Shown piece after piece: positions 12,061 through 61,983 of a DNA stretch of 64,000 nucleotides. The translations under genes were made by a program, and so were the position numbers. Location of the stretch: assembly GCA_021234155.1 (NCBI GenBank), contig JAJEKV010000061.1, positions 7,859,013 to 7,923,012 of the forward strand, given 5' to 3'. The stretch is from Isoetes taiwanensis (taxonomy: Eukaryota > Streptophyta > Lycopodiopsida > Isoetales > Isoetaceae). The notes below the pieces were generated by a model. The model was not told the origin of the DNA, ran no database searches, and saw only the letters and a program-made list of their open reading frames with translations. Each line of letters opens with the position of its first letter. Position 1 is the first letter of the stretch.

Positions 12061-13703
12061 CTAACATCTTGCATTGCAGCCAATCAAGTGTCTGAACAGA
12101 AACCTGCAATTCAAAACATATATCAAATAAACCTACATATATCAAAACACCTACATGAAAACTTACATGAAATTCAGTCCTTACTCGTAATCCCCTGCAC
12201 ATTATCACCACAAACTGCGCCATCCACACGTCGAAACAAAAACAAAAATAAGAAAAAAGCAGAACATCAAGCAAACAAAAAACACATACTTACAATTTCT
12301 TTGTGAAATCTCTTGCATCAGACGTATTACTAACTGAAAATGATATATTGCCACCACCAGAACTTCTAAGACGACGATCCACACCAGTAGAACAATCTGG
12401 AAAGTACTGCTTCAGCGCTGGACTTCGATCTAACAGAATGTCTAAATCCTTACAATACTTGTCATCAATTTCAACAGGAAGATTTACACTTCCAACATTA
12501 GTAATGTCAACCAATGACTTTTCATCCGATCTGCCAGCCAATCCAGCAGCCTTTCCTGCACTCGATCCAGCCAATCCAACATTTAAATTTTCCACATTAC
12601 TGCGGAACGCATCTCTATAACCTGTACCAGACTGCAGAACATCCATTGCGGCTGCCTTCGCAACAATACCAGACTGATCATACCGCTTGTAAGATTCTGG
12701 ATTCTTGTGACCTGTAATCGCCATTCCAACTTCAATTGGAACACCAGAAACGGACATCTGAGTGATCGCTGTAGACCTGCAACTTTTATTAGTGAAATTA
12801 CCCTTAATTCCACACACTTCTGTCATCTCACGCAGCCATAACGAAATACTCTTAGTGCTTGTATGGTTCGTATTATACCATACCCAAGTCCTGAACTTGT
12901 TAATAGCCTGCAGAAATACAAATCTTCCCCCAATCTTATCCTTCACTTCATAACACGGAAGATGGCCCTTAAGATGTCTCCATGTCTCAATAACGTCAGC
13001 CTCATAGCATCTTATTGGTTCCCTAAAATCCTCTGGCCTAAACTTGTTTATCCCACCATGCCAATTTTTGCTTGTCGTCTCACAGTACTCTATATATTCT
13101 CTAACAAAATCCCTGCCAATATTAATTTGGAAGTCTCGCACCTTCCGTAACTCTCCAACACCTCGTATCAGAAATCGAGCCATGCAATAAAAAGCAAAAC
13201 GTTTTTGAAGACGTGTAGCAGTGTTGACCTGATGCATAGGATGTGCCAAGATTCTATTCTGATCTTCCCTACTCAGAATATCGCTTTTTTTCCGTGTCAG
13301 AAGTGCACTCGCAGTAGCAGACTGTTCCATGGCAATTTCTAATGCTTTTCATGCCCTAAAGAAATTCACATCATGGTAAATGTCTATCAATTTCTCCTCC
13401 TGCCTAGTTTGCAGAACTCTCGAATCTTGTGCTCTCCTCAATATTCTATTGAAGGTACGAAATAGATTCTGCAAACTGCAAAATCTGGAATTCAGAACAA
13501 TGGAAAAAAAATCAAAAGAAATACAACAAAAACAAATGCAAAATACTTACGAATCTGGAGGATATCTCTGACCATCTTGCCGATGCACACAAAGTATAAA
13601 CTTTTCAAGCATATCAGCTAATTCATTGAGAGGAATCTCCTCAATTGGAGTTTGAATTAAAATATTGTTCAGAACTCTCCATGCGTGAAAACGACCCCTT
13701 GCC
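12061..13703 (-). pseudogene. Tyrosine recombinase (Crypton-like), C-terminal part
   Basis: This is the 3' part of a spliced gene. Exons on the minus strand are 13,703-13,551, 13,475-12,294 and 12,103-12,061, joined at GT-AG sites. The 1.18-kb exon carries an N-terminal helical DNA-binding region (residues such as ARGRFHAWRVLNNIL, TRLQKRFAFYCMARFL) and a catalytic domain with KSCRSTAITQM, then ITGHKNPESYKRYD. This matches the Arg, TGH and Tyr core of tyrosine recombinases of the Crypton/DUF3504 type. An in-frame TGA at 13,349-13,351, where a Trp codon would fit, breaks the frame. The N-terminal part lies beyond a 7-kb insertion, at 20,731-21,601. In the family such enzymes cut and rejoin DNA through a Tyr-linked intermediate. 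It could be a decayed Crypton-like transposon gene or a dead domesticated copy. Confidence 0.75.
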
Positions 13704-36413: not shown

Positions 36414-38884
36414 CCGCGTGGCATATTTGAGCCTAGGTGCATGTTGGAGCCTAGGTGGCGTGTACACGTGGCATGTTTGAGCCTAGGTGGCATGTTGGAA
36501 CCTAGGTGGCGTGTTTGAGCCATCTTGGCATGTTTGTGCCACCTTGGCATGTTGAAGCCCATGTGGCATGTTTGAGCCAACTTGGCATGCTTGAGCCTAG
36601 GTGGCATGTTGGAATCTAGGTGGCATCTTGGAGCCTAGATGGCATGTTAGAGCCCACGTAGCATGTTTGAGCCCACGTGGCATGTTTGAGCCACCTTGGC
36701 ATGTTTGAGCCAACGTGGCATGTTTGAGCCTAGGTGGCATGTTTGAGCCACCTTGGCATGTTTGACCCTAGGTGGCATGTTGGAGCCTAGATGGCATGTT
36801 TTAGCACGGGTGGCATGATGGAGTTTAGGTGGCATGTTGGAGCGAAGGTGGCGTGTTTGAGCCACCTTGGCATGTTAGAGCCTAGGTGGCATGTTGGGGC
36901 CCGCGTTGCATGTTTGAACCACCTTGGCATACTTGGGCCTAGGTGGCATGTTGGAGTCTATGTGGCATGTTGGAGCCTAGGTGGCATGTTTGAGCCACCT
37001 TGCCATGTTGGAGCATAGGTGGCATGTTTGAGCCACCTTGGCATGTTTGAGTTTGCGGCAAGTTGGAAGCCAGGGTGGCATGTTTGAGCCACCTTGGCAT
37101 ACTAAGTGGCATGTTGGAGCCCATGTGACATGTTTGAGCCACCTTGGCATGTTAGGTGGCATGTTGGAGCCTAGGTGGCATGTTGGATCCATCCTGCCAT
37201 GTTTGCTCCACCTTGGCATGTTTGAGCCTAGGTGGCATGTTGGAGCATAGGTGTCATGTTGGCATGTTTGGGCCTAGATGGCATGTTGGCATATTTGAGC
37301 CTAGGTGGCATGTTGGAGCCTAGGTGGCACATTGGATTCGGTGGCATCTTGGAGCCTAGGTGGCATGTTTGAGCCACCTTGGCATGTTGGACCCTAGGTG
37401 GCATGTTGGAACCTGGGTGTCAGGCTTGAGCCACCTTGGCATGTTTGAGCCTAAGTGGCATGTTGGAGCCCCATGGCATGTTTGAGCCACATTGGCATGT
37501 TTGAGCCTAGGTGGCATGTTGGAGCACACGTGGCATGTTTGAGCCACCTTGGCATGTTGGAGCCTAGGTGGCGTGACCTTGGCATGTTTGAGCCTAGGTG
37601 GCATGTTGGAGCCTAGGTGGCATGTTTGAGCCTAGGTGGCATGTTGGAGCCTAGTTGGCATGTTGGAATCCACGTGGCATCTTTGAGCCTAGGTGGCATG
37701 CCATCTTGGCATGTTTGAGACACCCTTTTCCCCTTTCCCTTTCCCTTTCCCTTTTCCTTCCCATTTCCCTTTTTCTGATAGGCTTTTTCTCTTCCCTTTT
37801 CATCTTTTTCTCGCCCTTCCTATTTTTTCTTTCCCTGTTTCCATGCCCTTTTTTCTTCTCTCTTCCCCACATTTTTGTGTGGCCCATTTCTTCCTTTTCC
37901 CAGCGTGGCATGTTTGAGCCACATTGGCATGCTTGAGCCTAGGTGGCATTTGGAGCCTAGTTGGCATGTTGGATCCACGTGGCATCTTTGAGCCCTGGGT
38001 GGCATGCCATCTTGGCATGTTTGAGACACCTTGGCATGTTAGAGTGTAGGTGGCATGTTGGAGCCTGCGTGGCATGTTTGAGCCACCTTGGCATTTGGAG
38101 CCTAGGTGGCATTTGGCATGTTTGAGCCTAGGTGGAATGTTGGCATGTTTGAGCCTAGGTGGCATATTGGAGCCTAGGTGGCATGTCAGAGCCACCTTGG
38201 CATGTTGGCATGTTTGAGCCTAGATGGCATATTGGAGCCTAGATGGCATTTGGAGCCTAGGTGGCATTTGGCATGTTTGAGCCTAGGTGGCATTTGGCAT
38301 GTTTGAGCCTAGGTGGAATGTTGGCATGTTTGAGCCTAGGTGGCATATTGGAGCCTAGGTGGCACATTGGATTCTAGGTGGCATCTTGGAGCCTAGATGG
38401 CATGTTTGAGCCACCTTGGCATGTTGGAGGCTAGGTGGCATGTTGGAACCTAGGTGTCATGCTTGAGCCACCTTGGTGTGTTTGAGCCTAAGTGGCATGT
38501 TGGAGCCCGCATGGCATGTTTGAGCCACAGTGGCATGATGGACCCTAGGTGGCAATCTTGGAGCCGACATGGCATGTTTGAGCCACCTTGGCATGTTGGA
38601 GCCTAGGCGGCATGTTGGAGCCCATGTGGCATGTTTGAGCCACCTTGGCATGCTTGAGCCTAGGTGGCATTTGGAGCCTAGTTGGCATGTTGGATCCAAG
38701 TGGCATCTTTGAGCCTAGGTGGCATGCCATCTTGGCATGTTTGAGACATCTTGGCATGTTAGAGTGTAGGTGGCATGTTGGAGCTGCAAGGCAGATGTGT
38801 TTGAGCCACCTTGGCATGCTTGAGCCTAGGTGGCATTTGGAGCCTAGATGGCATTTGGCATGTTTGAGCCTAGGTGGCATTTGG
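36414..38884. repeat. 19-bp satellite array A
   Basis: About 2.4 kb built from 19-bp units of the type GGCATGTTTGAGCCTAGGT, GGCATGTTGGAGCCTAGGT and GGCATGTTTGAGCCACCTT, with some units shortened or truncated. A pyrimidine-rich block (TTTCCC repeats) interrupts it at about 37,724-37,905. Because 19 is not a multiple of 3, three units (57 bp) encode a 19-residue peptide repeat in every open frame, which creates long spurious proteins on both strands. Confidence 0.95.
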
Positions 38885-39310
38885 GATCATTCGGGATCCA
38901 AGAAAACGACCATGTTTTGGCCTCCGAAATGTAAACCCTGTGTGTTGCTAGGTTATTGTAGGGTTTATGTTTTGGAGGCCAAAACGTGGTCGTTTTCTTA
39001 GATAATTAGGTGCACCTTTTCTAAACATGCATACGGAGCCATGTCAACTGAAATAACAGAGTTTGGATCTATTAGCCATCCCGAATGATCCCAAACAATT
39101 TTGTTACTGCAAAAGGTGCTCTTGATTTCTAATTGCCACATTGGGAGCAGGATAAATCCAAACCCCATTCCGTCACTTCCTATTGCTTCGATTTTTCAAC
39201 TGCAGCTTCTTGGCCATGTCTCAAGTGCAACTGAATAAAACTCGACCTCCATAACGTAAACCCTACAATAACCTGGCAACGCACAGGGTTTACGTTTTGG
39301 AGGCCATACC
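38885..39310. repeat. Imperfect palindromes with GTTTACGTTTTGGAGGCC arms
   Basis: At 38,919-38,985 the arms GGCCTCCGAAATGTAAACCC and GGGTTTATGTTTTGGAGGCC face each other. A second pair lies at 39,247-39,305 (GACCTCCATAACGTAAACCC and GGGTTTACGTTTTGGAGGCC). A third, diverged pair is at 40,661-40,715. The segments also share the phrase AGGTTATTGTAGGG or its complement. Confidence 0.8.
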
Positions 39311-40003
39311 CTAGTCAAATTGGACCAGGATCTTGCACAATGTCATGAGGTAGTGGGAGGGCATTGATGCCAGAAGATGGAGCCCTAAAACCTTCCAGAA
39401 GAAGTTGGACCCAAAGGTCCTCTCTGGAAGGTCCCTGGCCACGGACGGGCAACTCTCCCACCCCGGAACTGTGATCTGACTCTGCCAACAGACTCGAAAC
39501 ACCGACATTACCTTGGAGACCAAATTTCGTGGGCATAAGACCACCCCTGCTCCCGGAAGCGCCAAAGTAGCTCATGTCCAACACGTTCGTAGTGAATTGG
39601 CCTTAGCGGAGGGTGCGGAATACTGCCATGTAGAGGGTTCGTGTTTCTTTTGCTGCAAAAAATGACCATGTAACCTGGTCCCCAGGGTAATTTCGCTGTT
39701 TTGGACGACATGGCGAAGTCAAATCTCCATTCCAGAGCCTTTGTACTGCCCGAACGACACAACACTTGGGTTTCTACACGGTCGACTGCAGGACACTTTG
39801 CGCTTTAATGTGTTCTCCCGGACAGATCTTGAATTTTTTTGAGCCTGCTCGAAGCAAGTTACTTGAATGGAGAATTCAACGGTCGGATAGGGAAACCGGG
39901 TTCCGGGAAGGGAGGCATTGGCATTTGCCCTCCCAGAGGAGCACTGGTAGGAAAGCCTGCCTCGGTAACCTTTGTGATGTCCGTCTCCTGGGGTCTGGCC
40001 ACC
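39311..40003. repeat. Diverged duplicate segment, copy 1
   Basis: Blocks CAAATTTCGTGGGCATAAGA, CGCCAAAGTAG and AGGGTAATTTCG recur in the same order at 41,125-41,345. Both copies may derive from an unidentified older sequence. Open frames on the minus strand share LLWRF and GWS, but I recognise no family. Confidence 0.6.
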
Positions 40004-40292
40004 TAGGCTATAACATGCCACCTGGGCTGCAACATGCCACGCGAGCTCCAACATGCCAAGTTGGCTCCAACATGCCACCTAGGCTCAAGCATGCCAAGGT
40101 GGCTCAAATATGCCACCTAGGCTCCAACATGCCACCTGGGCTTCAACATGCCACGTAGGCTCCAACATGCCAACTAGGCTCCAACATGCCTCGTGAGCTC
40201 TAGCATGCCACCTAGGCTCCAACATGCCACCTAGGCTCCAACATGCCAAGGTGGCTCCAACATGCCACCTAGGCTCAAGCATGCCACCTAGG
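40004..40292. repeat. 19-bp satellite array B, inverted orientation
   Basis: The same 19-bp units as array A on the opposite strand (ACCTAGGCTCCAACATGCC and ACCTAGGCTCAAGCATGCC). It forms the outer part of the left arm of a large inverted repeat. Confidence 0.95.
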
Positions 40293-40440
40293 CACTCCAA
40301 GTGGTGACATGGCATGTCAAGTAAGCAAGGCCAAGTTTTGACTAGGCCAAAAATGAAAAGATGTCCATCTTTGGTCTTTTCATTGGGTGATGTTGGCAAA
40401 TTTTGGGTGACATGGCTAGATGGTGGTGACGTGACTAGGA
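40286..40440. repeat. Left arm of a large inverted repeat
   Basis: The sequence CCAAGTGGTGACATGGCATG ... GACATGGCTAGATGGTGGTG is the reverse complement of 41,735-41,880. With the flanking satellite the arms exceed 300 bp and enclose about 1.3 kb. Confidence 0.9.
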
Positions 40441-41729
40441 CTTTATGCAAGAAATATGATAACCTTTGAAATTTTTGTAGAGGAGTTTGGCAAGGGATAG
40501 AATAGAAGGATCTTGGAGAACTCACAAGCCCCTTTCCAGTGAAGGGGAGTCTGGATCAGCATGTTGCGCAGGGGGATTCGACCCCATCTCCGGGCATGGT
40601 CCCCAGAGCATACACAGAGAACTCCATGCAAAGTTTCGGATGTGTGAGTCTCCGTCTTGACGCTCGAGATGTAAACCCTAGCAAACCCTAGGGTTTGATA
40701 GGGTTTACATTCTGGGGATGCTCCGATGACCCAGAGGGCCCAGGATCTGACGTGGAATACCCGTGCTGGATTACCCTCATGGCACTGGGATGTGCAGCAT
40801 GACGCTGCACACGCAAGAGAAAATGCACTGGCAATAGAAGCACAAGCAGAGGCATGAGACGAAGCCGAGAGCCAACCCCTTCCTGAGGCCACCTGCGTAA
40901 CGTTCTCTCGGGCGGTGGAGCTAGCTTTGCTTCTCTGTGGTCACATGTATACCACCTAGCAGTCCTAGTGCTGCTATTCTCACTTCGATCTTCTACCAGG
41001 GCCTCAGGGTGACCCCAAGTGTCTTGTTCTCGCAGCTAGTCCAAGCCGGGGCTGAGGGCCGGGCTGGACCCCCACTCGGACCGAACCGGCTCGCCAATGG
41101 ACCCGGAACATCCCATTACCTGGGGACCAAGTTTCGTGGGCAAAGACCACCCCTTCTCCAAGAAACGCCAAAGTAGGTCGTTTACTACACACTTGTAGTC
41201 AATTGGCATGGAGGTGGATGCTGAATACCTCCTAGTGGGGGGTAAGTGATTGATCCCCTGGGAAAACTGGTAGTGGAACTTGTCCTCTAGGGTAATTTCG
41301 GCGTTCCAGACGATGTGGAGAGGTCGGATCGCCAATCCGGGGCCTCCTCCATGCCCCAAAATCGAAAACGTGGTCTAAACCTTGTCAGGGCCAACGGCGG
41401 CCATCCCAATAAAAAATCGAGGGTCTAAAACTCATCCGGAAATACCGGGGATTTTCCTATACTCTCGGGGCCACTTGGCAAGCCAGCTGGCTGAAAACCA
41501 GGATTTTTCCCTGCCCCATGCATTAATTATGAATTTCCGGAGCATAAACACAAAGAAAAGCACAGATAAAAATCCGGGTCTCGAAAAAAGGTGAAATCTT
41601 GGCAGGATGTTTAAAGATGACGCTGCATACGCAAGAGAAAATGCACCAGCATATATACCTTTCGGAGACTCCCCTTCACAAGAAAGGGGCCGCCGTCGAG
41701 GTGCCTGCCCGGTGTTTGCAGCACATCCA
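40441..41729. other. Spacer between the inverted-repeat arms
   Basis: Holds the duplicate segment copy 2 (41,125-41,345) and a phrase GCAAGAGAAAATGCAC repeated directly at 40,812 and 41,630. An inverted pair lies near each arm (CCAGTGAAGGGGAGTCTGG-like at 40,537 and its complement at 41,665). Open frames are not convincing as genes. Confidence 0.5.
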
Positions 41730-41880
41730 AGGTCCATGTCACCATCATCTAGCCATGTCACCTAAAATTTGCCAACATCACCCAATGAAAAGACCAAAGA
41801 TGGACATCTTTGGTTTTTTGGCCTAGTCAAAACTTGACCTTGCTTACTTGGCATGCCATGTCACTACTTGGGGTGCCTAG
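41730..41880. repeat. Right arm of the large inverted repeat
   Basis: Reverse complement of 40,286-40,440, including TTGCCAACATCACCCAATGA and GACCTTGCTTACTTGGCATG. It runs straight into satellite array C. Confidence 0.9.
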
Positions 41881-43278
41881 GTGGCATGCTTGAGACTAGG
41901 TGGCATGCCTGAGCCACCTTGGCATGTTGGAGCCTGCATGGCATGTTGGAGCCACCTTGGCATGTTGGAGCCCACGTGGCATTATGGAGCCACCTTGGCA
42001 TGTTGGAGCCTAGGTGGCATGTTTGAGCCCACCTTGGCATGTTTGAGCCACCTGGCATGTTTGAGCCTGGGTGGCATGTTGGAGCCTAGATGGCATGTTT
42101 GAGCCACCTAGGAATGTTGGAGCCTAGGTGGCATGTTGGAGCCCACGTGGCATATTTGAGCCACCTTGGCAAGTTGGAGCATAGGTGGTATGTTGGAGCC
42201 CGCGTGGCATGTTTGAGCACGTTGGAGCCTAGGTGGCATGTTTGAGCCATTTTGTCATGTTGCAGCCTAGGTGGCATGTTTGAGCCACCTTGGCATGTTT
42301 TGAGCCTAGGTGGCATGTTGGAGCCACCTTGGCATGTGGGAACCACCTTGGCATGTTTGAGCCTAGGTGGCATGTTTGAGCCACCTTGGCATGTTGGAGC
42401 CACGTGGCATGTTTGAGCCACCTTGGCATGTTTTGAGCACGTTGGAGCCTAGGTGGCATGTTTGAGCCACCTTGGCATGTTGGAGCCACCTTGGCATGTT
42501 GGAGCCTAGGTGGCATGTTGGAGACCACGTGGCATGTTTGAGCCACCTTGCCATGTTAGAGCCTAGGTGGCATGTTGGAGCCTGTGGTGGCATGTTTGAG
42601 CCACCTTGGCAAGTTGGAGCCCGCGTGGCATGTTTGAGCATGTTGGAGCCTAGGTGGCATGTTGGAGCCACCTTGGCACGTGGCATGTTGGAGCCCACGT
42701 GGCATGTTTGAGCCAGTGTGGCGGTTAGAGCCACGGTGGCATGTTGGAGCCTAGGTGGCATGTTTGAGCCAACTTGGCATATTTAAGCCTAGGTGGCATG
42801 TTGTGAGCCACCTTGGCATGTTGGAGGCTAGGTGGCATGGTGGAGCCCACGTGGCATGTTTGAGCCACCTTGGCATGTTTGAGCCTAGGTGGCATGTTGG
42901 AGCCTAGGTGGCATATTTGAGCCCACCTTGGCATGTTTGAGCCACGGCATGTTTGAGCCTAGGTGGCATGTTGGGAGCCTAGGTGGCATGTTTGAGCCAC
43001 CTTGGCATGTTTGAGCCTAGGTGGCATGTTGGAGCCACCTTGGCATGTTGGAGCCTAAGTGAGCCTGCATGGCATGTTTGAGCCTATGTGGCATGTTTGA
43101 GCCACCTAGGAATGTTGGAGCCTAGGTGGCATGTTGGAGCCCACGTGGCATATTTGAGCCACCTTGGCAAGTTGGAGCATAGGTGGCATGTTGGAGCCTA
43201 GGTGGCATGTTGGAGGCACCTTGGCATGTTTGAGCCTAGGTGGCATGTTAGAGCCACCTTGGCATGTTGGTGCCCACG
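41876..43278. repeat. 19-bp satellite array C
   Basis: About 1.4 kb of the same 19-bp units in the orientation of array A. Higher-order repetition is visible: a block of several units beginning GAATGTTGGAGCCTAGGT near 42,113 recurs near 43,112. Confidence 0.95.
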
Positions 43279-43369
43279 TTATGCAAAAATAGGTGTTAAG
43301 TAATTGAAGTAGTTGAAGTAACTTGTGTTACATGGAATACTAGTATAAGAACATGTGATCGTGCACGTG

Positions 43370-49169: not shown

Positions 49170-50090
49170 AAAATAAAGGGGAAGTCAATACAGATACTGC
49201 TGAGACAGGTTCATTTGACAATGCAGAACACCAATAAGACAAGAAGAAAAGAAGGACAGAGGTAGAAAAACTAAACGGAAACATTGAATTAGATCCAGAT
49301 TTGTATGACATAATGGATCATGGCAGTGTCGCATAATGAAGAACTGGATATATATCAGATTATGGCCGTACTTGATCCTGACATACCAGTCTTATGAAGA
49401 AGCTATGAATTCAAAATATGCAAAACAATGGGAAGATGCAATGATTGAAGAACTGTCAGCATTCAAAAGGACTCAGACATATGATGTGGTTAAACAACCT
49501 GAAGGGAAAAATGTTATAAGAAGCAAATGGTTGTACAAAATTAAAAGGGGCATTAATGGTGAGGAAAAGTTCAAAGCAAGATAGATTGCACAAGGATATA
49601 GTCACCTATAATGAAATTAACAAGCATAAGAATTCTCATGGCATTTGCTAATGCACACAACTTGGATATACACCACATGGATGTAAGCACAACATTTTTA
49701 AATGCTGAATTAAATGATGATGTCTATATGAGGCAAGTTCCAGGATTCGAAATTCAGGAGGAAGGAACCTTGCAGTGTATGGTCTCAAACAATCTCCCAA
49801 GATGTGGTATCAATGCATAGATAAATATCTTCTAGATCAAGGATTTATCAAATTTCTGAATGATGGGAATCTATACATACTTAGCAAGGGAAGTCAGTTC
49901 TGCATATTAGCCTTGTATGTAGATGACAATATCTTAGTACCAAGTGACATTGAAATGCTTAACAAATGTAAACAAATTCTGACCAGAAAGTTCAAAATGA
50001 CAGATCTAGGAAAAATTAAGAAATTCTTGGGCATCGAAGTGTCAAGAGATAGAGACAATAGCATATTGAAAATTACTCAATCGAGTAATA
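49170..50090 (+). pseudogene. Copia reverse transcriptase
   Basis: Copia sequence resumes after the chromovirus. Recognisable blocks are YEEAMNSKYAKQWEDAMIEE, RSKWLYKIKR, MDVSTTFLNAEL, YGLKQSPKMWYQ and the catalytic LALYVDDNILV. GKIKKFLGIEVSRD follows. The frame ends at KITQSSN, where the 11-kb transposon is inserted; it resumes at 61,136 with IEGMLKRFNMHD. Several stops and frame changes are present (near 49,335, 49,584 and 49,800). Confidence 0.92.
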
Positions 50091-50368
50091 AAGCAGAGTT
50101 TCATTAAAGTTGGAAATTTCGTGATTCCATTTTCGCTCGAAATGAAATTGTTCGTTGTTTTTTCACACATTCAGCAATCAAATCTGTGCTATTTACTTAA
50201 AAATGCACAAGGATTAGCCCGAAAACCGCTCTATTTCACACGAAATGGGGCGGAAATCGACGGTCAAAACAACCTGGTTGCGCCATTTGAATAAAAATTG
50301 TGGAAAAAAATCAATAAAGTCGCTGCATTTGAAGTGAATCATAAGGACAATACACGGGAAAAAGCAAA

Positions 50369-50435
50369 CAAATAGCGCGGCCGCGCAGTCTGTTGCAATA
50401 TATTCATATTGCAAATGGCGCTGCTGCGCTATTTG
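50369..50435. repeat. Palindrome cluster 1
   Basis: A half site CAAATAGCGC at 50,369 and a full 24-bp palindrome at 50,412-50,435 (CAAATGGCGC, TGCT, GCGCTATTTG). GCAATAT and ATATTGC between them can also pair. The cluster lies about 280 bp inside the left terminus, beyond the 3' end of the methyltransferase gene. Confidence 0.9.
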
Positions 50436-50796
50436 CTTTACAAGTAAGATATACAAAAGGGGCAAATACATTAAGATCGTATGTGTCATCAGTATTCAAA
50501 AGATTAATCAGTACAGTAATCATCAATACCACAGAGGTAAATCTTATATACAAGTATGATATGCAAATCAGTTTTCAATATTCATCACCAAAAACATTAT
50601 CATCTACTTTATCAATATCATCCGGGTTAATCTTACTTCGGTCAATCTGCGTTTCGGGATCTTGTACCACTTTTTCCCCGGATCCTGTGGCCTCTCCTGC
50701 ACCAGCCTGTGACCCATCTCCTCCACCACCATGTGATGTCTCTTCTCCACCACCATGTGATGTCTCTCCCGCTTAGAGGTGTCCGGTGCCAAAACC

Positions 50797-53620
50797 TTAC
50801 GAGTCCATGGTCTTTGGATCAAGCAAGGGATTAATGACGTTGTCAATTCTTCCAAGAATCCCTAGCATACATTGGATCTTTTTTCCATCATGCTCATAGG
50901 CCACACTACTCCTTTTTAACTGCAATGATGCCCTAGCAAAAGCCCCACCAGAAAAAAAGTCCAGAACAAAGTTACCTGGAGGGCAGAGCTTATCGACATG
51001 GTATGCTGTTGTAGCAGGACCAACCTGCTTGTGAACCAAGTATTCCCCTTCCATACCTTGCCAACTGTATTTGAACATGTCCCTCGGGGCTTGGTAGCCG
51101 ATTCTACGGCTCGGCACCTGCGCATCTTTATGGGTCTTAGGAACTTGGTGCTTTCGGGGATGTTCACCATAAAACACGAGATCCGGTGTTCATCAGGCTG
51201 TGCTTGGGCTGAGATCCTGGTGGCTAGAACCACAGCTGTTGGCTCTTTTATGCCACCACCTGGTGCCCACCCACTTTCCTCTTCGTACATGCCTAAGTAA
51301 ACTCTAGATCTGGATTCTAGTCTCTCCAGGGCAGTGCAGAAGAGACTCGTATGTTCCGGCTTAGCAAAACATATTACCCAGTATGTCTCAACGTCTGTCA
51401 TCTTAGAAGCGGCATCAAAGAATTTGGCGAGTGGCGGGATCCCAAATCGAGTAATTTGCTCCTAGCATCCAAGCAGATCATCTTTGGCAAAAAGACGATC
51501 CGATCTGGACAATCCCATCACTAGAAACGCACTCCACAAAAAATCTTTTGAACTCGCTGCCGGCCTCAGCGGCTTTAGAATCTTACGGATGGATCTGGGC
51601 CTAATGAGAAGGGCACATTACCATGGACGCCCTCTTTTCAATTATTCGTCCCGAGACCCACTTATTATGCACCACACCCCCACGATAGGAGGGTTGAGTC
51701 CGGGAATCTGTCGGACACCTTTCTCAAGTCCTCGAACTTTTCGTACTTGATTCCAAGTTCATCATGGATGTAGTTGAGAATCTCCTTCTTCATGTAGGCA
51801 AGAATCCTCAAGTTCGGGCTCTCGCCTTGAAAAATTATCACCCTTGTAATCCGATGTGACCTTAACGTAAATGTCCCCCGGGATGGCTTCCCACGGAGGA
51901 CAGATTCTGCGATCTTTCGTAATCCAGGCCTCTCATGCATCTGAGGTAGTTCTCGCTAAAATAGTCCTTATCCTTTGCCCAATTGACTGCTATTTGTTGG
52001 CCCTTGTTATCTTTCAGCTCCCCCTTTTTCCATTTATTCCACATTTGGCTTAAAGAGAGCGTAAATGTCGCCCGGCATGAAAACGAACTGTTGACATCCT
52101 TGGCATGCTTTCCCTCGAGAATCTTGTCAACCATTTCAAGGTAATGCTGAAAGGGCAAACCAAATATGTTAGAGCTTGAATGCAAAGCGATTGTCAAATG
52201 GCGCCGCCAAGCGCCATTTTGGCATCAAATGGCGCAATGGCCGCTTATTTGACCTCAAATGGCGAAAGTGGCGCCATTTGGCTCATCTGATGGTACATAC
52301 CTTGTATTAAATTCGCTTCTTGATTGGCCTTTTCTGCTGGTGCTGGCTTGCCGCACTCCTGGTATTGCCTACGCGGGTGGTGTATCTGATCTGCGTAGGG
52401 TTCCTTAAACACTGTCCTGGCTCATTGACATCCACACTGAGCTGAAGAAGGTCCAAGTCACTCAATGCTCCAGAAAGAACTCTGCACATTCTATAAGTGT
52501 AAATCTTCATGAGTTCTATTTCGCATCTTAAATCCCCAACCGACACCACGTACATGCCGGGAGGAGCGAGTAAATGGTTGCCATTGATAATGTAGAACCT
52601 CATACCAGCCAGGTCTGATTCTTGCGACCAAGGTACTAACCGCCCAGATCGGATCAAAGGGCACCACATCTGCCGGCGTGAAGACTGGATGGGGATCTTC
52701 AGCAAATGACTTGCACAGTTTCCTAACATGTTCAAGATTTACAACTCGTGCTGTCATGTTAGGAGGTGCCTCTTCCATATCCCAGATGGATATTTTTCTT
52801 ACATATGTCACACCTAGAGGAAACATGTGACCGTGCTGCTGTATTTTTTTTAGAGTTTCTTCTGCCAACTCCTCCTCGGTATCACGGTCCATCTTCAACT
52901 CCGAGGGCACCTCCAGACTTTCCATTTTCCTCTGCTTTCTGACCCTCATCTCCTTCTTTGTTTCCCTCCTCCTTTTATGCGGAATGCTTTCAGCCGTCGA
53001 TCCAGCGCCTTTACCTCTCAAATGTGGAGAGGATTTAGTATCACTAATGGTTCTCTCGAATCCTCGCTTTATCCAGGGGACTTGATAGGAGAACCGATCC
53101 CGATAGGAGGAGACTTGGGAGTGACTTGGGAGGAGACACCGGGATTTTCTCGCCGTCTTTCTTTTGATTCTCTTCCTCATGCTCCGCCCCTTCCATTTGG
53201 ACTTCCTTTGGTTTGCCTTTTTCTTCCCTTGGCTTGGCTTGCCTAAGGTTTGGCTTGGCTTGCCTTGGCTTTTTCCTTGAAATCTCCTGTCGAAGCCAAG
53301 TGCTGTCCATTAGAGCAGGCATATTACAAGAGGTCTTGGCTCTGACAATATGTGACACTGAGTTCTTTGATCCGTCCATAGCTGAACGGAGAATGCCAAA
53401 TCCTCTAAGTAGCTCGACCGTGCCATTAATAGCATTTTGCCTCTTTGCTTTTCATTATGAAGGCAACGGCCGACCTTTTCTTTTGGCAGAGACTGTCTGG
53501 TCCTTGATGATGGATTCCATCATATGTGGATCGTAAAACTGCCAGTCCATGCAGTACAGATCAATGCTGCAATTCACGGGATCCTCCACTGTGCAACCAA
53601 GGAAGTCTAATCTTCCTGCT
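50797..53620 (-). pseudogene. ParB-like domain plus DNA-methyltransferase-like protein
   Basis: Read 5' to 3' on the minus strand. A head at about 53,620-53,470 has CSIDLYCMDWQFYDPHM and an AT-hook-like KRKGRPLP. Lys-rich segments follow (53,380-52,850). A ParB-like region at 52,800-52,560 shows NLEHVRKLCKSF, DVVPFDP and, in another frame, FYIINGNHLLA, the ParB NGNH signature. A GT-AG intron at 52,147-52,300 contains palindromes. A linker follows (SLSQMWNKWKKGEL, then MKKEILNYIHDELG). The methyltransferase half has VETYWVICFAKPEH (51,390) and, near 50,950, GNFVLDFFSGGAFARASLQL, the AdoMet-binding FxGxG motif, then VAYEHD. Motif I lying C-terminal fits beta-class amino-methyltransferases. I could not find the catalytic DPPY box; the region where it should lie (51,480-51,660) is disrupted. 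At least four frame changes are present. It is a broken copy; target base and site are unknown. Confidence 0.7.
52195..52280. repeat. Palindrome cluster 2, inside an intron of the methyltransferase gene
   Basis: Three palindromes of 25-26 bp at 52,195-52,220, 52,226-52,251 and 52,256-52,280, each with CAAATGGCG-type arms around a short spacer. They fill most of the 154-bp intron (52,147-52,300). Confidence 0.9.
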
Positions 53621-55411
53621 TTTTACCTCCGCATGTTGACAATGATGCCAAGCCGCATCCTGGCGTCTTGTTCACCACTTTCGACTTTGTGAGGAGGCAA
53701 ATTTCTCTCCTCTTGTCCCCTTTGTGGGGTCGACCCCCTTCCTCCAAGGGAATTGCCCCGACAATTTCCATGCACCATGGCCTTCCAGCCATGACCCGCG
53801 GTCTTCTCCGTCACAGCGTTTTGGGCCTTGGACAACGGCGCACAAGAAAACAACAAATCAACATTCAAATCATGAAACCCAAACCCAACCCACTCGCCAT
53901 TTGCATGGAAATGGCGCCATGCTGCGCCATTTGCCGGTCGAGAAATGGCGCTAGGCGCGCCATCCATGCAAATGGCGGCAGCTGCGCCATTTCTCGGCAA
54001 ATGGCGCGGGTAAATCTATTTTCGATACAAATAGGATAAATTGGCCATTTCCATGCAAATGGCGTCGCTGCGCCATTTCTCGACCGGGCGGTCGGGAATC
54101 TACGGCCAGCCAACAATCCGCAGTGTACCTCCTATTCCGCGCGTCACGAAGTCGAGGCATTCTCGGCCAGCGAAGTCGATAATAAGGCACGTACTTTCTA
54201 GATTGTTGGCAAGTCGAGGGAGAGGCGACTAGCCGATTGGAGAAATGGCACATTGGCGCCATTTGCATGGAAAATGGCAAAGTGGCTCATTTACATTACA
54301 CTACATCTGATCTAAACAAACTACAAAAGTAACACATCCCAAAAAAATGGCGCGTCCGTGATATTTCTTTCAGACGGAACCACAAAAACTCACTATCCTA
54401 GACACCTGGCTACATGAAACGGCGCGGTCGCGCTATTTCTTTCTCGGGAAAAAACGTAAAACTCACTATCCTAGACACTGGCTACATGAAGCAAGCCATG
54501 GTCGCGGTATTTCAATACCCATGACGAAAAACAGGTTAAAAACAATCGAACTAACTCAACCCGACGCCATCAGATATGTAATCGCACAGGGGACCGTAGA
54601 AATTCTACTCCACCTTTTTTCCTCGAGCTCCCGGATCAACAGGCGCTACTCGAAGGCGCTAGAGAGAGAAACACGAAGGCGCTAGAGAGAGAAAGCTAAG
54701 GCGCTAGAGAGAGAAGGCGTATATACTGGCCATTGGGCGCTGGGCGAAGGCGCTTTATATCGGCGGATGAAATGAAATGAAAGAAATGAAATGAGAGAAA
54801 ATAAACCCGGGCCAAATTAATGGCGCCGACAGATTTGGCCCACAGTCCGTCCCCTCGCCAGCCCCTTCCGGTCCCCGGTCACTTGAATTTTAAATTTTGA
54901 ATTTGAATTTCCGCCCGTCCGCCAATTGAATTCTAAAATTTGAATTCCACTGCTTCGCCACTAGAATTTTAAAATTTGAATTCCCGCCACTTTTCAAGAT
55001 ATATTGTGCCACCCCTCGCCTCAAAGCCGCTTATAAAATCTGCGGGTACAGATATGGTAAACGAAGGCGCTTTCGTCCTCAGATTAGCGGGTTGCATTTT
55101 ACGCTCCCGTCCCTCGCTTCAACATCCGAGGTACTTTGTGCCTTAGAGGACTTGGCGCCAAGTCGGCGTCTATTCCGCCTTAGGCATTGGTTGTGAAGCG
55201 CTTCGAGGGCGCTACCAGCGGTTGTAGGCGCTTTAGTTGGTTGCGTGAAGCCGGTTGGTTAGCGCGCTTCTTCATTTCATACGGCTTCTTCATTTCATAG
55301 CCCGCGCTTCACTTGGTTGCGCTTCTTCATTTCATAGCGGTAGCTTCTTCATTTCATAGCGCTTCCTCTATTTTGAAGGCCTACTTGATTCAAGGCTCTT
55401 CCCTTCTTTCA
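53621..55411. promoter_or_regulatory. Divergent promoter region between the two transposon genes
   Basis: Separates the minus-strand methyltransferase gene from exon 1 of the plus-strand transposase gene. The first part (53,621-53,900) is still open on the minus strand and may be coding. Palindromes lie at 53,908-54,265. GGCGCTAGAGAGAGAA is repeated three times at about 54,655-54,717, and GCTTCTTCATTTCATA is repeated about four times at 55,267-55,365. I could not fix start sites. Confidence 0.6.
53908..54265. repeat. Palindrome cluster 3
   Basis: Palindromes at 53,908-53,933, 53,942-53,965, about 53,969-53,993, 54,056-54,079 and 54,242-54,265, with an extra half site near 53,998. Arms are AAATGGCGC and GCGCCATTT with four to six bases between. 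Weaker copies follow at 54,346, 54,417 and 54,487. Some are extended by TGCATGG or TCTCG, so there are subfamilies. Confidence 0.9.
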
Positions 55412-58400
55412 ATGGCGCGATTCTCGATCTACAATGATCCCAAGGTTAGTGATTACTGTTTTTTAGTTTAAGCGTGCAATTTCTCCTATAAGTGCGAATA
55501 ATGTTTCTACCACAGAGTGTCAGAGTAAACTGTAACAATCCGGGAAATAATCTGAGTAGTGTTGTAATAACCGCAAAGATGTCTGTAACAATCGTAATAA
55601 TCTTGTAGTCCGTAGTAATCTCTACTAATGTGTATCTGTAATCTTGATGTCTGTTGTATCCCGTGAAGTTATATGTAGTAAATCGTAGTAACTGCATCGT
55701 GTAACTGGCTGTCCTAAGTTTTCTGCTTTGTTCCTAAAGCCAAATGGCGCTGGTGCGCCATTAAATCAAATAGCGCAGCCGCGCCATTTGTCTCCAAATA
55801 AGCAGCCGTATTTGTTTACTCAAATGGCGCGGCTGCGCTATTTTGTGGCAAATGGCGCGGCTGTGCTATTTGAACAAATGGCGCATCCACGCCATTTGCC
55901 CGCTTTTTTATGAATATTTTATGATCATTTCCGCGGGGTTTCTAACAATGTGTGTGTCATTGCATGCTTGCGGGGAAAGGACCTTCGCAGAACTTCCTAC
56001 GTGGGGACGTGGTTGTTGCTAGGGGGCATGAACTGCATAGAGGGCACCTACATGGAAAGAGCATTGACTACTTTAAGAACGTCGTCGTGGAGGTTACTGA
56101 AGCCATAATTCCATCCCATGTGCTTCCCATTCCATGTGCAGGTGCGGATAACGTTGCTGAAGCCGTAGGCACATTTATCGAATGGCCTAGACGTGACGTG
56201 AGAATCTGTCCAGATGCTTCACCTGTATCATCATCTGAGACGAAACCCCCAACCTGCCTAGTAGTTCCTCTACATCGTCATCACCCAGTTCTCCTTCATC
56301 TCAGCCAATGAGCAACACGGAGAACTTGGTGAACTTATGCAGTGACAATGTTGTTGTTGGCAGAGGTCATTGGCTGAATAGAAGTAGCATCCATGGGAAG
56401 GATGTGGATGCACAGAACGTGGTTGTGCAAGTTACCGAGGCTGTGGTGCCAACTCAGGTGCTTCCGATTGCATGTGCGGGTGCAGATAATATTGCAGAGG
56501 CTGTGGGCACATTCATCGAATGGCCTCGAAGCGATATACGTTTTCATGGCATTGATGCAGCCCATGATGAGACACCAAGATCAGACATGGGGACACCTAC
56601 CTCATACAACTCATACATAGAATCTGTGGAGGCGAGATCGATGCGAGATGAAGAGATTGATCCATCAATGGATTTAGCTACTTTCGGTTTTCTTTCGAGA
56701 ATACCATCGATGATGATGAGCCACCACCTAGTTACTCAAGAACGAGAACTCTTGGAAATGCAGTGCCATATTCTCCATTCTTGTACTAGAACTAAACATG
56801 CGTAAGCTATAATTCTATTCAGTGATCCTCAGGATGCTGTTGATGATGAATTCTTAGGAGACACAAAGGTTGGCCTTTGTGTTGGAAAGGTGCTTCCAGA
56901 ACTAATGAAAGAGGATCTGAGATGTCATGCTTGTGCAGAAAGGCCAAGTGAGAATGCACTTGTTCGGTGGGAAAATAGCGATGTGATGCTGCTGGATGGA
57001 AGGACTGTCTCACAACATCTGCAAGCTCGAGAAGCTAAAGAAAATGAGGATATAGAGCTTGAATCATTTGAGGACAACATTCAGGCTCAATTCAAACGAA
57101 AGAAGAAGTATACTTACACACATAGGATTCCAAGAGAGCCCAAGGGAAAAAGCAAAGAGGAAAGGCTATGCTCTACGACTTCAATCAATAAGTTCATGAA
57201 GTCAAGCTGCTGCAAAAATACTTGCAACAAGAAACTTACCAAGCATCAAGTACGTGAATTAAGAAAAGAATTTTTATCCCAACCATACAATGCAAGGGTT
57301 ACGTTTTTTTTTTTTGGCGTCCGAGTGTGACTTACAATGGAGAAGGAGAGGACAGGATAGTGCTCAAGGGGATAGAATTGCAATGCATTTTGGGTGGCGA
57401 TGGCTTTAGGTATCGGTCGACCAACATTTTACAATTGGAGAAACAGATTTGAAGCAGGTGCAAAGGTAGCTGAACATGGTAATACTGGCTCTAAGAAGCC
57501 TAGATCCACTACACTGGCCACCGAATGTGTGCTAGACAGATTCATTCAGGAGAATGCTGAAAGTATTCCCCATAGGAGCAAAAGAGGTAGAGATGATGTA
57601 AGAGAAAACGTCACATAAGCTTCCTTCCATTCTTAATAAGAAGCTTATACATAAAGAAGTTGGTGCAAATCGTTGAAGAGCTTACGGGGAACAATCTGTA
57701 GCCTTGAACTCTTTTTATAGTATATGGAAAAGGGAATTTCCGGATGTTAGCATTGCAAAAATACAGACCTTCTCTAAATGCAACATCTGCGTGGTAATCA
57801 AGCAAAAGCTGGAAAAAACAAAAGATACAAGAGAGAGACGAAATCTTGCAATTCAACGTCGGGCTCATATGTTAGAGCAACGTTCTTGCAGAAGTCAATA
57901 TTGGCATTGTGGAGCATTGTCACAGCGGTCTCCAGAAAATCATCTATGTATAATACATGATAAGATGGATCAGGTTAAGACTTTAGTGCCTAGAAGTCAT
58001 CATCTAGCAAAATCTGTATGGAGAGGTGATCGCTTGAAGAGCAGTTTGACAGGAGCTCTGACTCATGGGCATGGTGGTCGTGCCTATGGTCATTTCTCAC
58101 TTGATTTATGGAAAGATGATTCAAACTTCCACATTGGTTCACTTTCTAGGATATTGCATAACTTGGAATTGGTACAAGAGGACAAGATAGGTGACTTATG
58201 TGGAAGTAAGCCTGCAGATTGCAAATGGATGCAAGCAGTCAAGGATACCAATCCTTTGAAGAACAAACTTGCTTCTATGGCAGAAGTATTGCCAAATGCT
58301 TCAACTACAACGAATCCTGAGGTGTTCAACCCTCTCCCCCGAAATCTCTATTTGCAACTTGATAATGCATCAGGGCAAAACAAAAATTTATTTGACTTGG

Positions 58401-59508
58401 CTTAAGGTCTTTGATGAGATCCAAGTGGGCTTTATGATGGTCGGCCACACCCATGATGATATTGATGCTTTATTTGGAAATTTTTCAACCTTGATGAGTT
58501 CATCTGATGCTTTGACACTACCGAGCTACTTTACTTGTTCAAGCAAGTGCAATGCGAAATCTCCAATTCCATACTTTATTGATGAAGTTCCAAATTGGAA
58601 GGCTTTTTGTGAAGGGATTCATCCCGATAAGGGCCAACGCTGGTTGGGCATCTTGAACCATTGCTCTTCAAATTTAAGATGGCGGAGATTGGCCACGTTA
58701 TGCAATACAAAATGCGCCCCTACACATAAAGAGTGGCTTCCAGCAGATTCTCCGGGAGTTAGAATGTGGAAAGAGGATGAACATGGTCAGCCAATGATAC
58801 CAAGTGGTGTGCCACAAAATATTCCTCCTAGACCAACATTGAAAGATCTTCCGGGGGTTGAAGGATAGCATCAACAAATACATCTCCCTATGGAAGGACA
58901 TATGTAAGAATCAAGAAAGTAGCTTGTTTGCAAGGCAATACACGGCAAGTGTTGAGTATTGGAGCCGACTTCTTATCTCTTTGGAGGATGTTGCTCCGGG
59001 GCGCCCTCAAAATGATGCATTTTGGCCACAAACAAGACAAGCTCCTCTAGAACAAAAAAAGATTTGTTCCAGAGGTCGACGATATCTGCCTTGGTCACAC
59101 GACCTTTACCATCTTATTGTGGCCCGCCGATGGCCGCGCCCCGGTGTTGCCTCTTGAAGAGTTTGATCCTCACGCATACATGTGACAAAGGGTATGTTTG
59201 TTCTAGTCGGAGACTGGAGATGATAACACCGCCACTTGGTTAGGATATCAGAGGAGAATGTTTGTTCTTGATCCGGAATCTACATATTTTGGCCATATTT
59301 TTATATCGTGGTGGAAGCCTCTTTTGGAGGGGACTACAAAGACCGCTTGACTAAGCGTTGGCGGCCTAATCCTTCCGATCCTTCAAGGTATGAAAATTTA
59401 GATGCTATTCATTATGCCTGGGATGCCAATGGCAAGAGGCCGAAAACAGTTCAAATTCCGAAATATATTGTAGACATGTGGAAAGACATAGCACATTGTT
59501 CATCTTAA
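55412..59508 (+). pseudogene. DUF7869-type transposase with two DUF8039-like modules
   Basis: Exon 1 (55,412-55,444) encodes MARFSIYNDPK. A GT-AG intron joins it in phase to an exon at 55,991 starting NFLRGDVVVARGH. Two similar modules follow, ending DNVAEAVGTFIEWPR and DNIAEAVGTFIEWPR, a DUF8039-like pattern; a frame change near 56,250 separates them. Next come a Cys-rich segment (KSSCCKNTCNKKLTKHQVRE, 57,200), a helix-turn-helix-like GIGRPTFYNWRNRF (57,410) and AEHGNTGSKKPRS. The DUF7869-like core has LTGALTHGHGG, LYLQLDNASGQNKN (58,350) and VGFMMVGHTHDDIDALFG (58,430), whose Asp residues are probably catalytic. About 15 residues are missing between NKN and VFDEIQVGF, with a frame change. 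The tail (KDSINKYISLWKD to VDMWKDIAHCSS) is split by further frame changes. The transposase role is inferred from the family and from its place in a TIR element. Confidence 0.8.
55741..55898. repeat. Palindrome cluster 4, in intron 1 of the transposase gene
   Basis: Five palindromes of 24 bp at 55,741-55,764, 55,767-55,790, 55,821-55,844, 55,849-55,872 and 55,875-55,898. The core pattern is CAAATGGCGC, four bases, GCGCCATTTG, with G/A variation in the arms. All lie between the exon 1 donor at 55,445 and the acceptor at 55,989-55,990. Confidence 0.92.
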
Positions 59509-59678
59509 TACATGAGATCTTGTAATACATATCTTTCATCTTAATACATAAGATCTTGTACATTACTGTATTTGTGATCATATATAACTGCTTACATCTT
59601 TAATATATAAATGCATACATGATTTATAGATAAGATGGTCAGAAGTGCTTACATGTTGAACAGGTGATTCATTCATCT

Positions 59679-59894
59679 TCAGGATCTGTAGTAGTGATCC
59701 CTGATATCAGGAAGCCAAATCAGATGGATCATAACACGAATTGACGCAGGGCAATGAATCTCAGCGCCCAAAGCTTTTCTTTGCAGGTAGGGATCAAGAA
59801 GAAGATGCCTGTCTAGGCAACCAACAAGATCAGAGAGGCTCATTGAGCACTTGATCGCCTCGATGTGGTGAATAGAAGAAGGTAAATAATCCAT
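59679..59894 (-). CDS. Small ORF A, 71 aa, unknown function
   Basis: An intact frame starts MDYLPSSIHHIEAIKCSMSL and ends VMIHLIWLPDIRDHYYRS. A TATA-like CTATAAAAACAG lies about 45 bp upstream of the ATG on the minus strand. Two related, frameshifted ORFs follow nearby (60,180-60,401 and 60,632-60,880). Shared features are an IKC or ITC near residue 15, a DPYLQ/DPWLQ/EDWLT block and a VIHL-W motif. It lies between the transposase gene and the right terminus, so it belongs to the 11-kb element. I do not recognise the family. Confidence 0.55.
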   Translation of the reverse strand: MDYLPSSIHHIEAIKCSMSLSDLVGCLDRHLLLDPYLQRKALGAEIHCPASIRVMIHLIWLPDIRDHYYRS

Positions 59895-60179
59895 GGGAGA
59901 TGAATGACCTCTAGCCCCGAATGGAGCTGTTTTTATAGTGAAGTAAAATTATTCATGTGAATTATTGGGGTGGATCAGAGCGCCATCATTGAGCGTATAC
60001 AAGTATCATGTACCGCATGTGTATGATTCTATCATGTACTCAGATTCTATACATCACCTAATATTCACTATGCTTATATTATATATATCCAATGTGATAC
60101 ACAAATCATAAGTGCTTATATTATTATATCCTTAACAGTATACTGATCATCACCGATTCACTCATCATCAACACTTAAT

Positions 60180-60401
60180 GAGGTAATGGCATTCAGCTCA
60201 TAGATCTCCGATCGGGAAGCCAATATAGGTGGATCACAACACTAGTGAGCTTTCCCGCAAGCACCGCAGGACCATCCGCTTTGGATTGCAGCCATGGATC
60301 CATCTTCACACCCTTTATTGCGCAATCATACCCGGATCATTGTAGCTCATGTAGCACTTGATGGTTTGGATGTTCTCCGGACGATCAGGCAAGGAAGCCA
60401 T
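60180..60401 (-). pseudogene. Small ORF B, paralogue of ORF A, frameshifted
   Basis: Starts MASLPDRPENIQTIKCYMSY. After NDPG a one-base frame change is needed to continue as IKGVKMDPWLQSK and then VVIHLYWLPDR. Its upstream 80 bp (CTATAAAAGCAGCTCCATTC, then the stretch up to the ATG) closely match those of ORF A. Promoter and leader were duplicated with the gene. Duplicate blocks lie about 507 bp apart. Confidence 0.55.
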
Positions 60402-60631
60402 GGGAGATGAATGACCTCTACCACCGAATGGAGCTGCTTTTATAGTGAAGTAAAATTATTGATGTGAATTATTGGTGTTCATTGCCATTATACGAGTACC
60501 ATACATGTATATGATCCAATAATCTCTATGTATATACTATCAATAATTTTGGTGAGTATATACCATCAATAATTTTGGTGGGTATAAATATACATCAAAT
60601 TGCCGAGTGCAGCAACATTGGCCTCTGTCTA

Positions 60632-60880
60632 GCTATGACGTATTCTGGTCTTGAACGTGATTCTATCACTTGCAAGATGAATCATGAGGACTTCAAGCGG
60701 TGTCATGAAAGCGAGATATACCGCTTGAAGACTGGCTCACCACTGTTGCTCTCAATCCTCGCCATTATCCTGATCCCGTCGATGTTATCATACATCTCCT
60801 ATGGAATAGAGAGTATCAAATGTTCATGATCGAAAGGATCTCTGGAGCGCCTTCTGCTAGTTCTGATCATTCAGAGTAAT
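60632..60880 (+). pseudogene. Small ORF C, diverged relative of ORFs A and B
   Basis: On the plus strand, MTYSGLERDSITCKMNHEDF begins the frame; after KRCHES a frame change leads to RDIPLEDWLTTVALNPRHYP and VIIHLLWNREYQ. The order of motifs is that of ORFs A and B, though similarity is weak. GGTATAAATATAC upstream, near 60,580, is TATA-like. The frame change is at nearly the same place as in ORF B. Confidence 0.4.
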
Positions 60881-61110
60881 AGTAGAAGAATAATAGTACT
60901 TGTTATCTTATTGTAATCTGGTTGTGTTAGTATACAACAGGTATACATAACCTTTTGTAGTACACATAACCGTAATAAAAGTATTGATGTATACTAGTAT
61001 ACACATGTATACATAACCTTATGTAATACACATAACCATACTATAAGTATTGAGGTATACATAACCCTCCAAGTATACTATATAAAAATTATTCCAACTT
61101 GTCTCCAGAA
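60881..61110. other. Right subterminal region of the 11-kb transposon
   Basis: AT-rich DNA with repeated GTATACATAACC and ATAACCGTAATA-type phrases (for example near 60,940, 61,010 and 61,050). ATTCCAACTT at 61,091 repeats part of the terminus at 61,111. No palindromes of the GCGC family were seen here. Confidence 0.6.
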
Positions 61111-61135
61111 TTCCAACTTTAATGAAACTCTGCTT

Positions 61136-61983
61136 AATATAGAAGGCATGCTTAAAAGATTTAATATGCACGATTGTAATGTTGGAAGAACACCAATTAT
61201 TCAGGGATTAAAATTGTCAAGTGACCACTGTCCTAAAACTCAGGAATAATTACTGGAAATGGAGAAGATCCCATACATGGAGTTTATTGGTTGTTTGCTA
61301 TATATTTCAAATTGTACCAGACCAGAGATAGCTTTTACAGTCAACTTGTTGAGCAGATTTAATAATAATCTAGGGAAGCAACATTGGACCATTGCAAAAC
61401 GAGTTCTAAGGTATCTAAAATATACACAGAATCATGGGTTGACATTTAGCAATAATGACTTGGTGCTCAAAGGATATGCAGATGCTGATTGGGGTCGTGA
61501 CATTGACACGAGAAGTCTACATCTGGATTTGCTTGATGCTAGGAGGACCTGTTAGTACTTGGAAAAGTAAGAAACAATCAAGTGTTCCAATGTCCACAGC
61601 TGAAGCAGAATACAACTCCGCAACACTTGCAGCAAAGGAAATTGCATGGGTCAGAAGGCTACTTAATGAGCTCAAGATTATTCAGAAGTTGCTTACAGTA
61701 CTTTATTCTGATAGTTTGAGCTGCATTGCAATTAACATGAAATCCAGTATTACACTAAAGAACCAAGCACATTGAATTACATGTTCATTTTATTAGGGAA
61801 ATGGTTGCAATTTGCAAAAGGTGTGGTGACAGTTGAATACATCTCTACTCATGAGCAAGTGGCAGATATATTAACTAAAGGGTTATCAGAGAGTTCATAA
61901 AAAAAAAAAAGTTTGAGAAATTTAAAGATAAGCTAGGAATACAGGATTTAAATGATGCAAAGGAAATTAGCATGAAAGGGGAA
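61136..61983 (+). pseudogene. Copia reverse transcriptase end and RNase H
   Basis: Resumes at IEGMLKRFNMHD. Blocks typical of copia are YMEFIGCLLYISNCTRPEIA, KRVLRYLKYTQNHGL, LKGYADADWG, SKKQSSVPMSTAEAEY, EIAWVRRLLNEL and YSDSLSCIAI. THEQVADILTKGLSES follows near 61,850. The second RNase H strand is frameshifted near 61,510. A polypurine tract, ATGAAAGGGGAA, at about 61,972-61,983 precedes the 3' LTR. Confidence 0.93.

Follow-up and report, generated by a model that had tools for sequence, protein, structure and literature searches.

What is the 11,045-bp insertion that interrupts a copia retroelement in Isoetes taiwanensis, and does the methyltransferase-like gene inside it serve the element that carries it? 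The insertion occupies positions 50091 to 61135 of the stretch of DNA analysed here, a window of 64,000 nucleotides from contig JAJEKV010000061.1 (positions 7,859,013 to 7,923,012, forward strand, assembly GCA_021234155.1), and the remaining window DNA amounts to 52,955 bp. It is almost certainly a DNA transposon, and the best explanation is one inactivated copy of a cut-and-paste DNA transposon inserted in an older copia element. For the favoured reading as a whole, in which this transposon carries a methyltransferase-like gene as its own cargo and the encoded protein acts at palindromes of the element, we put the probability at roughly 0.5. A sequence-only reading had described the element as a complete transposon with its own DNA methyltransferase gene. 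Its ends are as follows.

50087 to 50090, unstranded: left target site duplication AATA
50091 to 50115, plus strand: left terminal inverted repeat (TIR), 25 bp, perfect
61111 to 61135, minus strand: right TIR, 25 bp, perfect
61136 to 61139, unstranded: right target site duplication AATA

Over all 25 bp each TIR is the exact reverse complement of the other, and AATA directly adjoins both of them on the outside, as had been claimed; by our estimate chance alone would give a perfect inverted pair of this length about 2e-6 times in 64 kb. Elsewhere in the window no site matched either TIR at up to five mismatches, and one did at six. The repeat scan gave 13 inverted pairs, and besides the TIRs and the pairs formed by palindrome clusters only one was left (31 nt, 71%). 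When the flanks were joined with a single AATA (...LKITQSSNIEGMLKRFNM...), the copia frame was open across the junction and through ITQSSNIEGMLKRFNM, so the predicted restoration of this frame on removal held good at the junction itself; farther out, stop codons interrupt this frame upstream of CLYEASS and downstream of KTQE, and the host copia is decayed. An open frame on joining, in a copia that has decayed, argues for real cut-and-paste transposition, and the insertion is such an event into an older retroelement. A 66-bp tandem duplication at 60928-61060 adjoins the right TIR.

Which enzyme moved the element? The right-hand part of the insertion holds a broken transposase gene.

55412 to 55444, plus strand: possible first transposase exon (MARFSIYNDPK), donor AAG|GTTAGT, read by eye
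55445 to 55990, plus strand: possible transposase intron 1, read by eye, containing palindrome cluster D (55742-55897)
55991 to 59480, plus strand: DUF7869 transposase, broken, in frames +1, +2, +3, +1, then +2 and +1

Two of its open reading frames (ORFs) matched DUF7869 (PF25273) at 43.4 and 55.7 bits (E 3.7e-11 and 6.1e-15), both above the Pfam cut-off of 26 bits, and when 6661 candidates were queried with the transposase read-through, 15 relatives came within E 1. PF25273 is present in every one of the 15, and PF26133 in three of them as well. These results confirmed the proposed DUF7869-type transposase. Identity to the best relative is 32%, with 99% of the query aligned, and the moss Ceratodon purpureus contributes one of the 15. 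When the relatives were compared with the window by tblastn, the transposase was found split over frames +1, +2, +3 and +1 successively; the first two blocks abut at 57606/57608, where an intron cannot fit, 19 bases and a frame change (58388-58406) stand in place of 14 residues of P0001, and stops lie within the matched blocks at 56803, 57328, 57358, 57373 and 57674. This copy is read as unable to make its transposase, and would be mobile, if at all, only via proteins from another copy. The word ‘complete’ in the sequence-only reading therefore suits the ends, which are intact, and not the genes, as both have frame changes and the transposase has stops in addition. A 121-bp direct duplication, 77% identical, is present in the transposase N-terminus (56076-56196 and 56414-56534, the repeated ...GTFIEWPR... 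segment).

The motifs HDKMD, LDN and GHTHDDID, which contain the aspartates invariant in a 15-row alignment, are retained. In a search with a structure model of P0001 (mean predicted local distance difference test score, pLDDT, 63.9) the seven best rows by Z were all integrases or transposases, namely Rous sarcoma virus (RSV) integrase at 8.1 (model residues 509-743), Mos1 at 7.7 and 7.5, CRISPR-associated transposon (CAST) transpososome chains at 7.4, Metnase at 7.3 and TnsB at 7.0, values to be taken with the tool's caution that Z under about 8 can be noise; Foldseek alone gave no match for the model at E up to 0.001. We read these results as pointing to a probable DDE transposase. Our literature search on DUF7869 returned no reports, its coverage of subscription papers being too small for the absence of other reports to be claimed.

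The second gene lies on the minus strand from about 53309 to 50797, opposite to the transposase and inside the TIRs, which supports the earlier description of a DNA transposon with a divergently arranged methyltransferase-like gene.

52301 to 53309, minus strand: N-terminal part, ParB-like by eye only (GMRFYIINGNHLLA), with no profile match
52147 to 52300, minus strand: predicted GT-AG intron, read by eye, containing palindrome cluster B (52196-52279)
51462 to 52146, minus strand: middle of the gene, interrupted frames
50916 to 51461, minus strand: preceding ORF (ETYWVICFAKPEH...), to which the C-terminal block is joined only via a frame change near 51175
50797 to 51189, minus strand: C-terminal ORF (VHKQVGP...PPGNFVLDFFSGGAFARA), corresponding to the block from motif X to motif I in beta-class amino-methyltransferases

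Several frame changes run along this gene. Its last ORF matched PF01555 over profile positions 120-212 of 221 at 18.7 bits (E 0.0017), below the Pfam cut-off of 26.7 bits, so that the methyltransferase gene of the sequence-only reading is retained as a C-terminal match of subthreshold score. The read-through containing this ORF matched phrog_3008 (E 0.0091) and RsrI (E 0.43) over the same stretch, as did a phage protein (E 0.6) which itself matches PF01555 at 6e-29, and a profile of eight phage methylases scored 19.0 bits on it, against a best of 1.7 in 200 shuffles. The stretch contains an H..V.P block and then a PPG..VLD.F.G block, which we take to be motif X followed by motif I, in beta-class order. 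Alone, the methyltransferase identification is weak, and the published parallel of Sola1-1_Ec32 (see below) adds most to it. We regard the methyltransferase-like gene as probably the element's own cargo; its intact protein may have held a working methyltransferase and may have bound DNA in the manner of ParB.

Does the element contain sites at which such a protein could act? Palindromes were found in four clusters, A to D (50243-50435, 52196-52279, 53894-54438 and 55742-55897), two of which lie in the predicted introns listed above, and the other two as follows.

50243 to 50435, unstranded: palindrome cluster A, in left subterminal DNA
53894 to 54438, unstranded: palindrome cluster C, between the divergent genes

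The half-site AAATGGCGC or its complement occurs in exact form 19 times in the element and not once in the rest of the window, while order-1 Markov sequences of the element gave a mean of 0.09 and a maximum of 1 (200 runs). Half-sites pair as 22-24-bp dyads of the form AAATGGCGC-N4-6-GCGCCATTT. At up to 3 mismatches of 18 there are 15 distinct dyads in the element and none outside it, where one appears at 4; counted as rows at up to 4 mismatches, 23 were obtained in the element against a Markov mean of 0.35 and a maximum of 3 (20 runs). All 19 exact half-sites fall outside the provisional exons, which span 5880 of the 11045 bp. The splice sites listed were placed by eye, and the exon ends used for this count lie up to 7 bases away from them, which alters the placing of no half-site; two small minus-strand coding units were left out of the exons. 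The right 5.2 kb of the element has no exact half-site. Among the 15 dyads 18 positions are altered in one arm and 0 in both, and this confinement of changes to single arms favours half-sites read in DNA over an RNA hairpin. Since the clusters are common to both halves of the element, the second gene region can be argued to be an old part of it. The arrays are thus candidate target sites for the idea that the element marks its own DNA.

Base composition was examined by CpG observed/expected ratio in 1-kb scanning windows with the motifs masked.

53501 to 56000, unstranded: high CpG region, scanning windows starting 53501-55001

The ratio was 0.89 to 1.22 in the four scanning windows starting from 53501 to 55001, and the 103 outside the element had a median of 0.48 and a maximum of 1.01. 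Placed around the middle of each palindrome cluster, from A to D, such windows gave 0.76, 0.67, 1.03 and 0.82. The high CpG content fits DNA that has escaped methylation.

How does the element compare with known systems? Judged from its target duplication length and its layout, the element is most likely of the Sola kind: AATA agrees with a Sola-type 4-bp AT-rich target duplication, those of Sola2 being AWWT, ATAT, AAAT and ATTT (PMC3627910). Sola1-1_Ec32 of the brown alga Ectocarpus is likewise a DNA transposon with an opposite-strand gene for a ParB-like and N4C/N6A methyltransferase protein (PMC12477816), and the same layout, a gene opposite to the transposase and within the TIRs, is found here. 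It differs in its length (21.5 kb against 11.0 kb) and in that its protein of 1104 amino acids (aa) has both domains recognised, whereas here the gene is broken and ParB was not detected; palindromes are present in our element and go unmentioned for Sola1-1_Ec32 in the available part of that paper. Its authors suggest, as a possible role of such proteins, that they attach to the element encoding them and modify it, and, citing Iyer, Abhiman and Aravind 2011 and Petroll et al. 2025, they report similar ParB-methyltransferase-like proteins in green and red algal transposons. The pairing of a transposase with a ParB-methyltransferase is therefore already known from algal elements, and the new interest here lies in the candidate target sites.

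For the sites themselves the likeness is to VANDAL21 of Arabidopsis, where an element-encoded protein, VANC21, binds a short element-specific motif of 9 bp. This motif is concentrated in the introns and in the intergenic and terminal non-coding stretches of VANDAL21, and DNA methylation is lost there through the action of VANC proteins (PMC5735166). VANDAL21 is a Mutator-like (MULE) transposon, in contrast to the DUF7869 transposase here, and the element is not placed in the VANDAL/VANC group, the likeness being one of motif layout only. Other mobile elements have also acquired DNA-modifying enzymes. Fungal TET/JBP DNA transposons carry one as cargo, thought to counter silencing, but it is a 5-methylcytosine (5mC) dioxygenase and not a methyltransferase (PMC12730594); Mariner elements of giant viruses are eukaryote-type DNA transposons with a methyltransferase, but with a Mariner transposase, an endonuclease partner and other methyltransferase families (PMC3627910); and the DNMT elements of Symbiodinium and Klebsormidium captured a methyltransferase, but are retrotransposons with C5 enzymes (PMC5890265). 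N4CMT of bdelloid rotifers is a bacterial-type amino-methyltransferase in a eukaryote, linked to transposon chromatin, but it is a host gene aiding silencing, whose product includes a chromodomain and keeps the SPPY motif intact (PMC8885841).

The following mechanism can be proposed. The DUF7869 transposase, probably DDE-type, would have made cuts with a 4-bp stagger (AATA), and the divergent second gene would have encoded a methyltransferase-like accessory protein. When intact, this protein would recognise the palindromes, whether intronic, intergenic or left-subterminal, and would modify or shield the element DNA bearing them, which would stop host cytosine methylation from silencing the element. 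This anti-silencing route is put forward tentatively, at somewhat less than an even chance. A more specific form of it, in which the ParB-like part loads on the dyads in the element's non-coding DNA and the methyltransferase part writes N4-methylcytosine (4mC) or N6-methyladenine (6mA) there, as a private bacterial-type mark excluding host 5mC, we consider unlikely. The observations are best accounted for by an accessory protein with the ability to recognise the element encoding it, and this protein may mark, shield or restrain that element.

Several observations weigh against the favoured reading. The methyltransferase match, besides its low score, spans motifs X and I only, its glycine loop is one residue short, and the catalytic motif [DNS]PP[YFW] that an active PF01555 amino-methyltransferase requires is absent from all three minus-strand frames of 50797-53309, the gene being decayed. 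The ParB-like domain of the sequence-only reading was not recovered, as the frame-broken read-through had no Pfam match for it at E up to 10 and no PHROG match at E up to 1, and it is plausible by eye; two protein searches with the second gene gave no homologue. If one mismatch is tolerated, half-sites appear outside the element as well (37 of 53 sites are inside), and the top CpG scanning window (54501-55500, ratio 1.22) is without an exact half-site, because of which promoter composition could explain the CpG peak equally well. VANC motifs are 9-bp and in one orientation, unlike the palindromes here, and VANC is not itself a methyltransferase (PMC5735166). The DUF7869-Sola link stands on duplication length and layout and not on sequence comparison, and the whole analysis covers a single copy of the element.

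Repeated transposase-binding motifs are known in plant transposons such as En/Spm and Ac, and on this precedent the palindromes could be binding sites of the transposase or of a host factor driving transcription, with the methyltransferase-like protein making no use of them. The clusters between the genes and in predicted introns would suit this, but motifs that serve to bring the two ends together should be present at each of them, and the right 5.2 kb is without exact half-sites; we regard this alternative as possible, though doubtful. It is also conceivable, and rather improbable, that the second gene plays no part for the element and travels as passive cargo, having been captured or nested by chance between the ends. 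Its broken state, the failure to detect a homologue and the missing catalytic motif would agree with this; on the other hand, palindromes specific to the element occur both in its predicted intron and on the transposase side, the sole leftover inverted pair does not bound the gene, and a like layout is published for Sola1-1_Ec32.

The mark could instead restrain or time transposition, or hide newly made DNA, rather than lift silencing. Retrotransposon-encoded C5 methyltransferases have been shown to carry out de novo CG methylation in yeast, and the discussion of them extends to self-methylation or a reduced rate (PMC5890265), but no feature of the present copy informs the direction of the effect, and we judge this, too, rather improbable. 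Least probable in our view is that the second gene is not a methyltransferase, its motif I match being chance or a non-catalytic Rossmann-like block: the subthreshold score, the failure to find motif IV, a search of NCBIfam with the read-through that gave no match and a single-sequence structure model too poor to use (pLDDT 34.5) all point that way, but the two blocks stand in the same order as in RsrI and phage methylases, and the layout is that of a published ParB-methyltransferase element.

Other features of the element and the window are given here for completeness.

59679 to 59948, minus strand: small coding unit, copy 1
60170 to 60475, minus strand: small coding unit, copy 2, with ends that are approximate and a single frame change

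The two copies are 51% identical over 84 aa, copy 2 being read across its frame change, and a 92-bp stretch, 90% identical, covers TATAAAA and the first ATG of each; a Pfam search of both gave no match. Outside the element, a 352-aa ORF on the minus strand (12290-13348) has a tyrosine recombinase-like C-terminus (PF00589, E 1.2e-5, 25.6 bits against a cut-off of 27.1) and possibly comes from a Crypton- or DIRS-like element, and 36418-43279 contains blocks of a 19-bp minisatellite (GTGGCATGTTTGAGCCTAG type) in about 69, 50, 16 and 75 copies.

Binding to and marking of their own element have been proposed for the ParB-methyltransferase genes of transposons, with no target sequence named in the available part of that work (PMC12477816). 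The present element offers a concrete candidate target, palindromes which within the window are limited to element DNA outside exons, and these make self-recognition testable by standard binding and methylation assays. If the favoured reading is true, it would be a second way, unrelated to VANC, for a transposon to evade silencing while the rest of the genome is left undisturbed.
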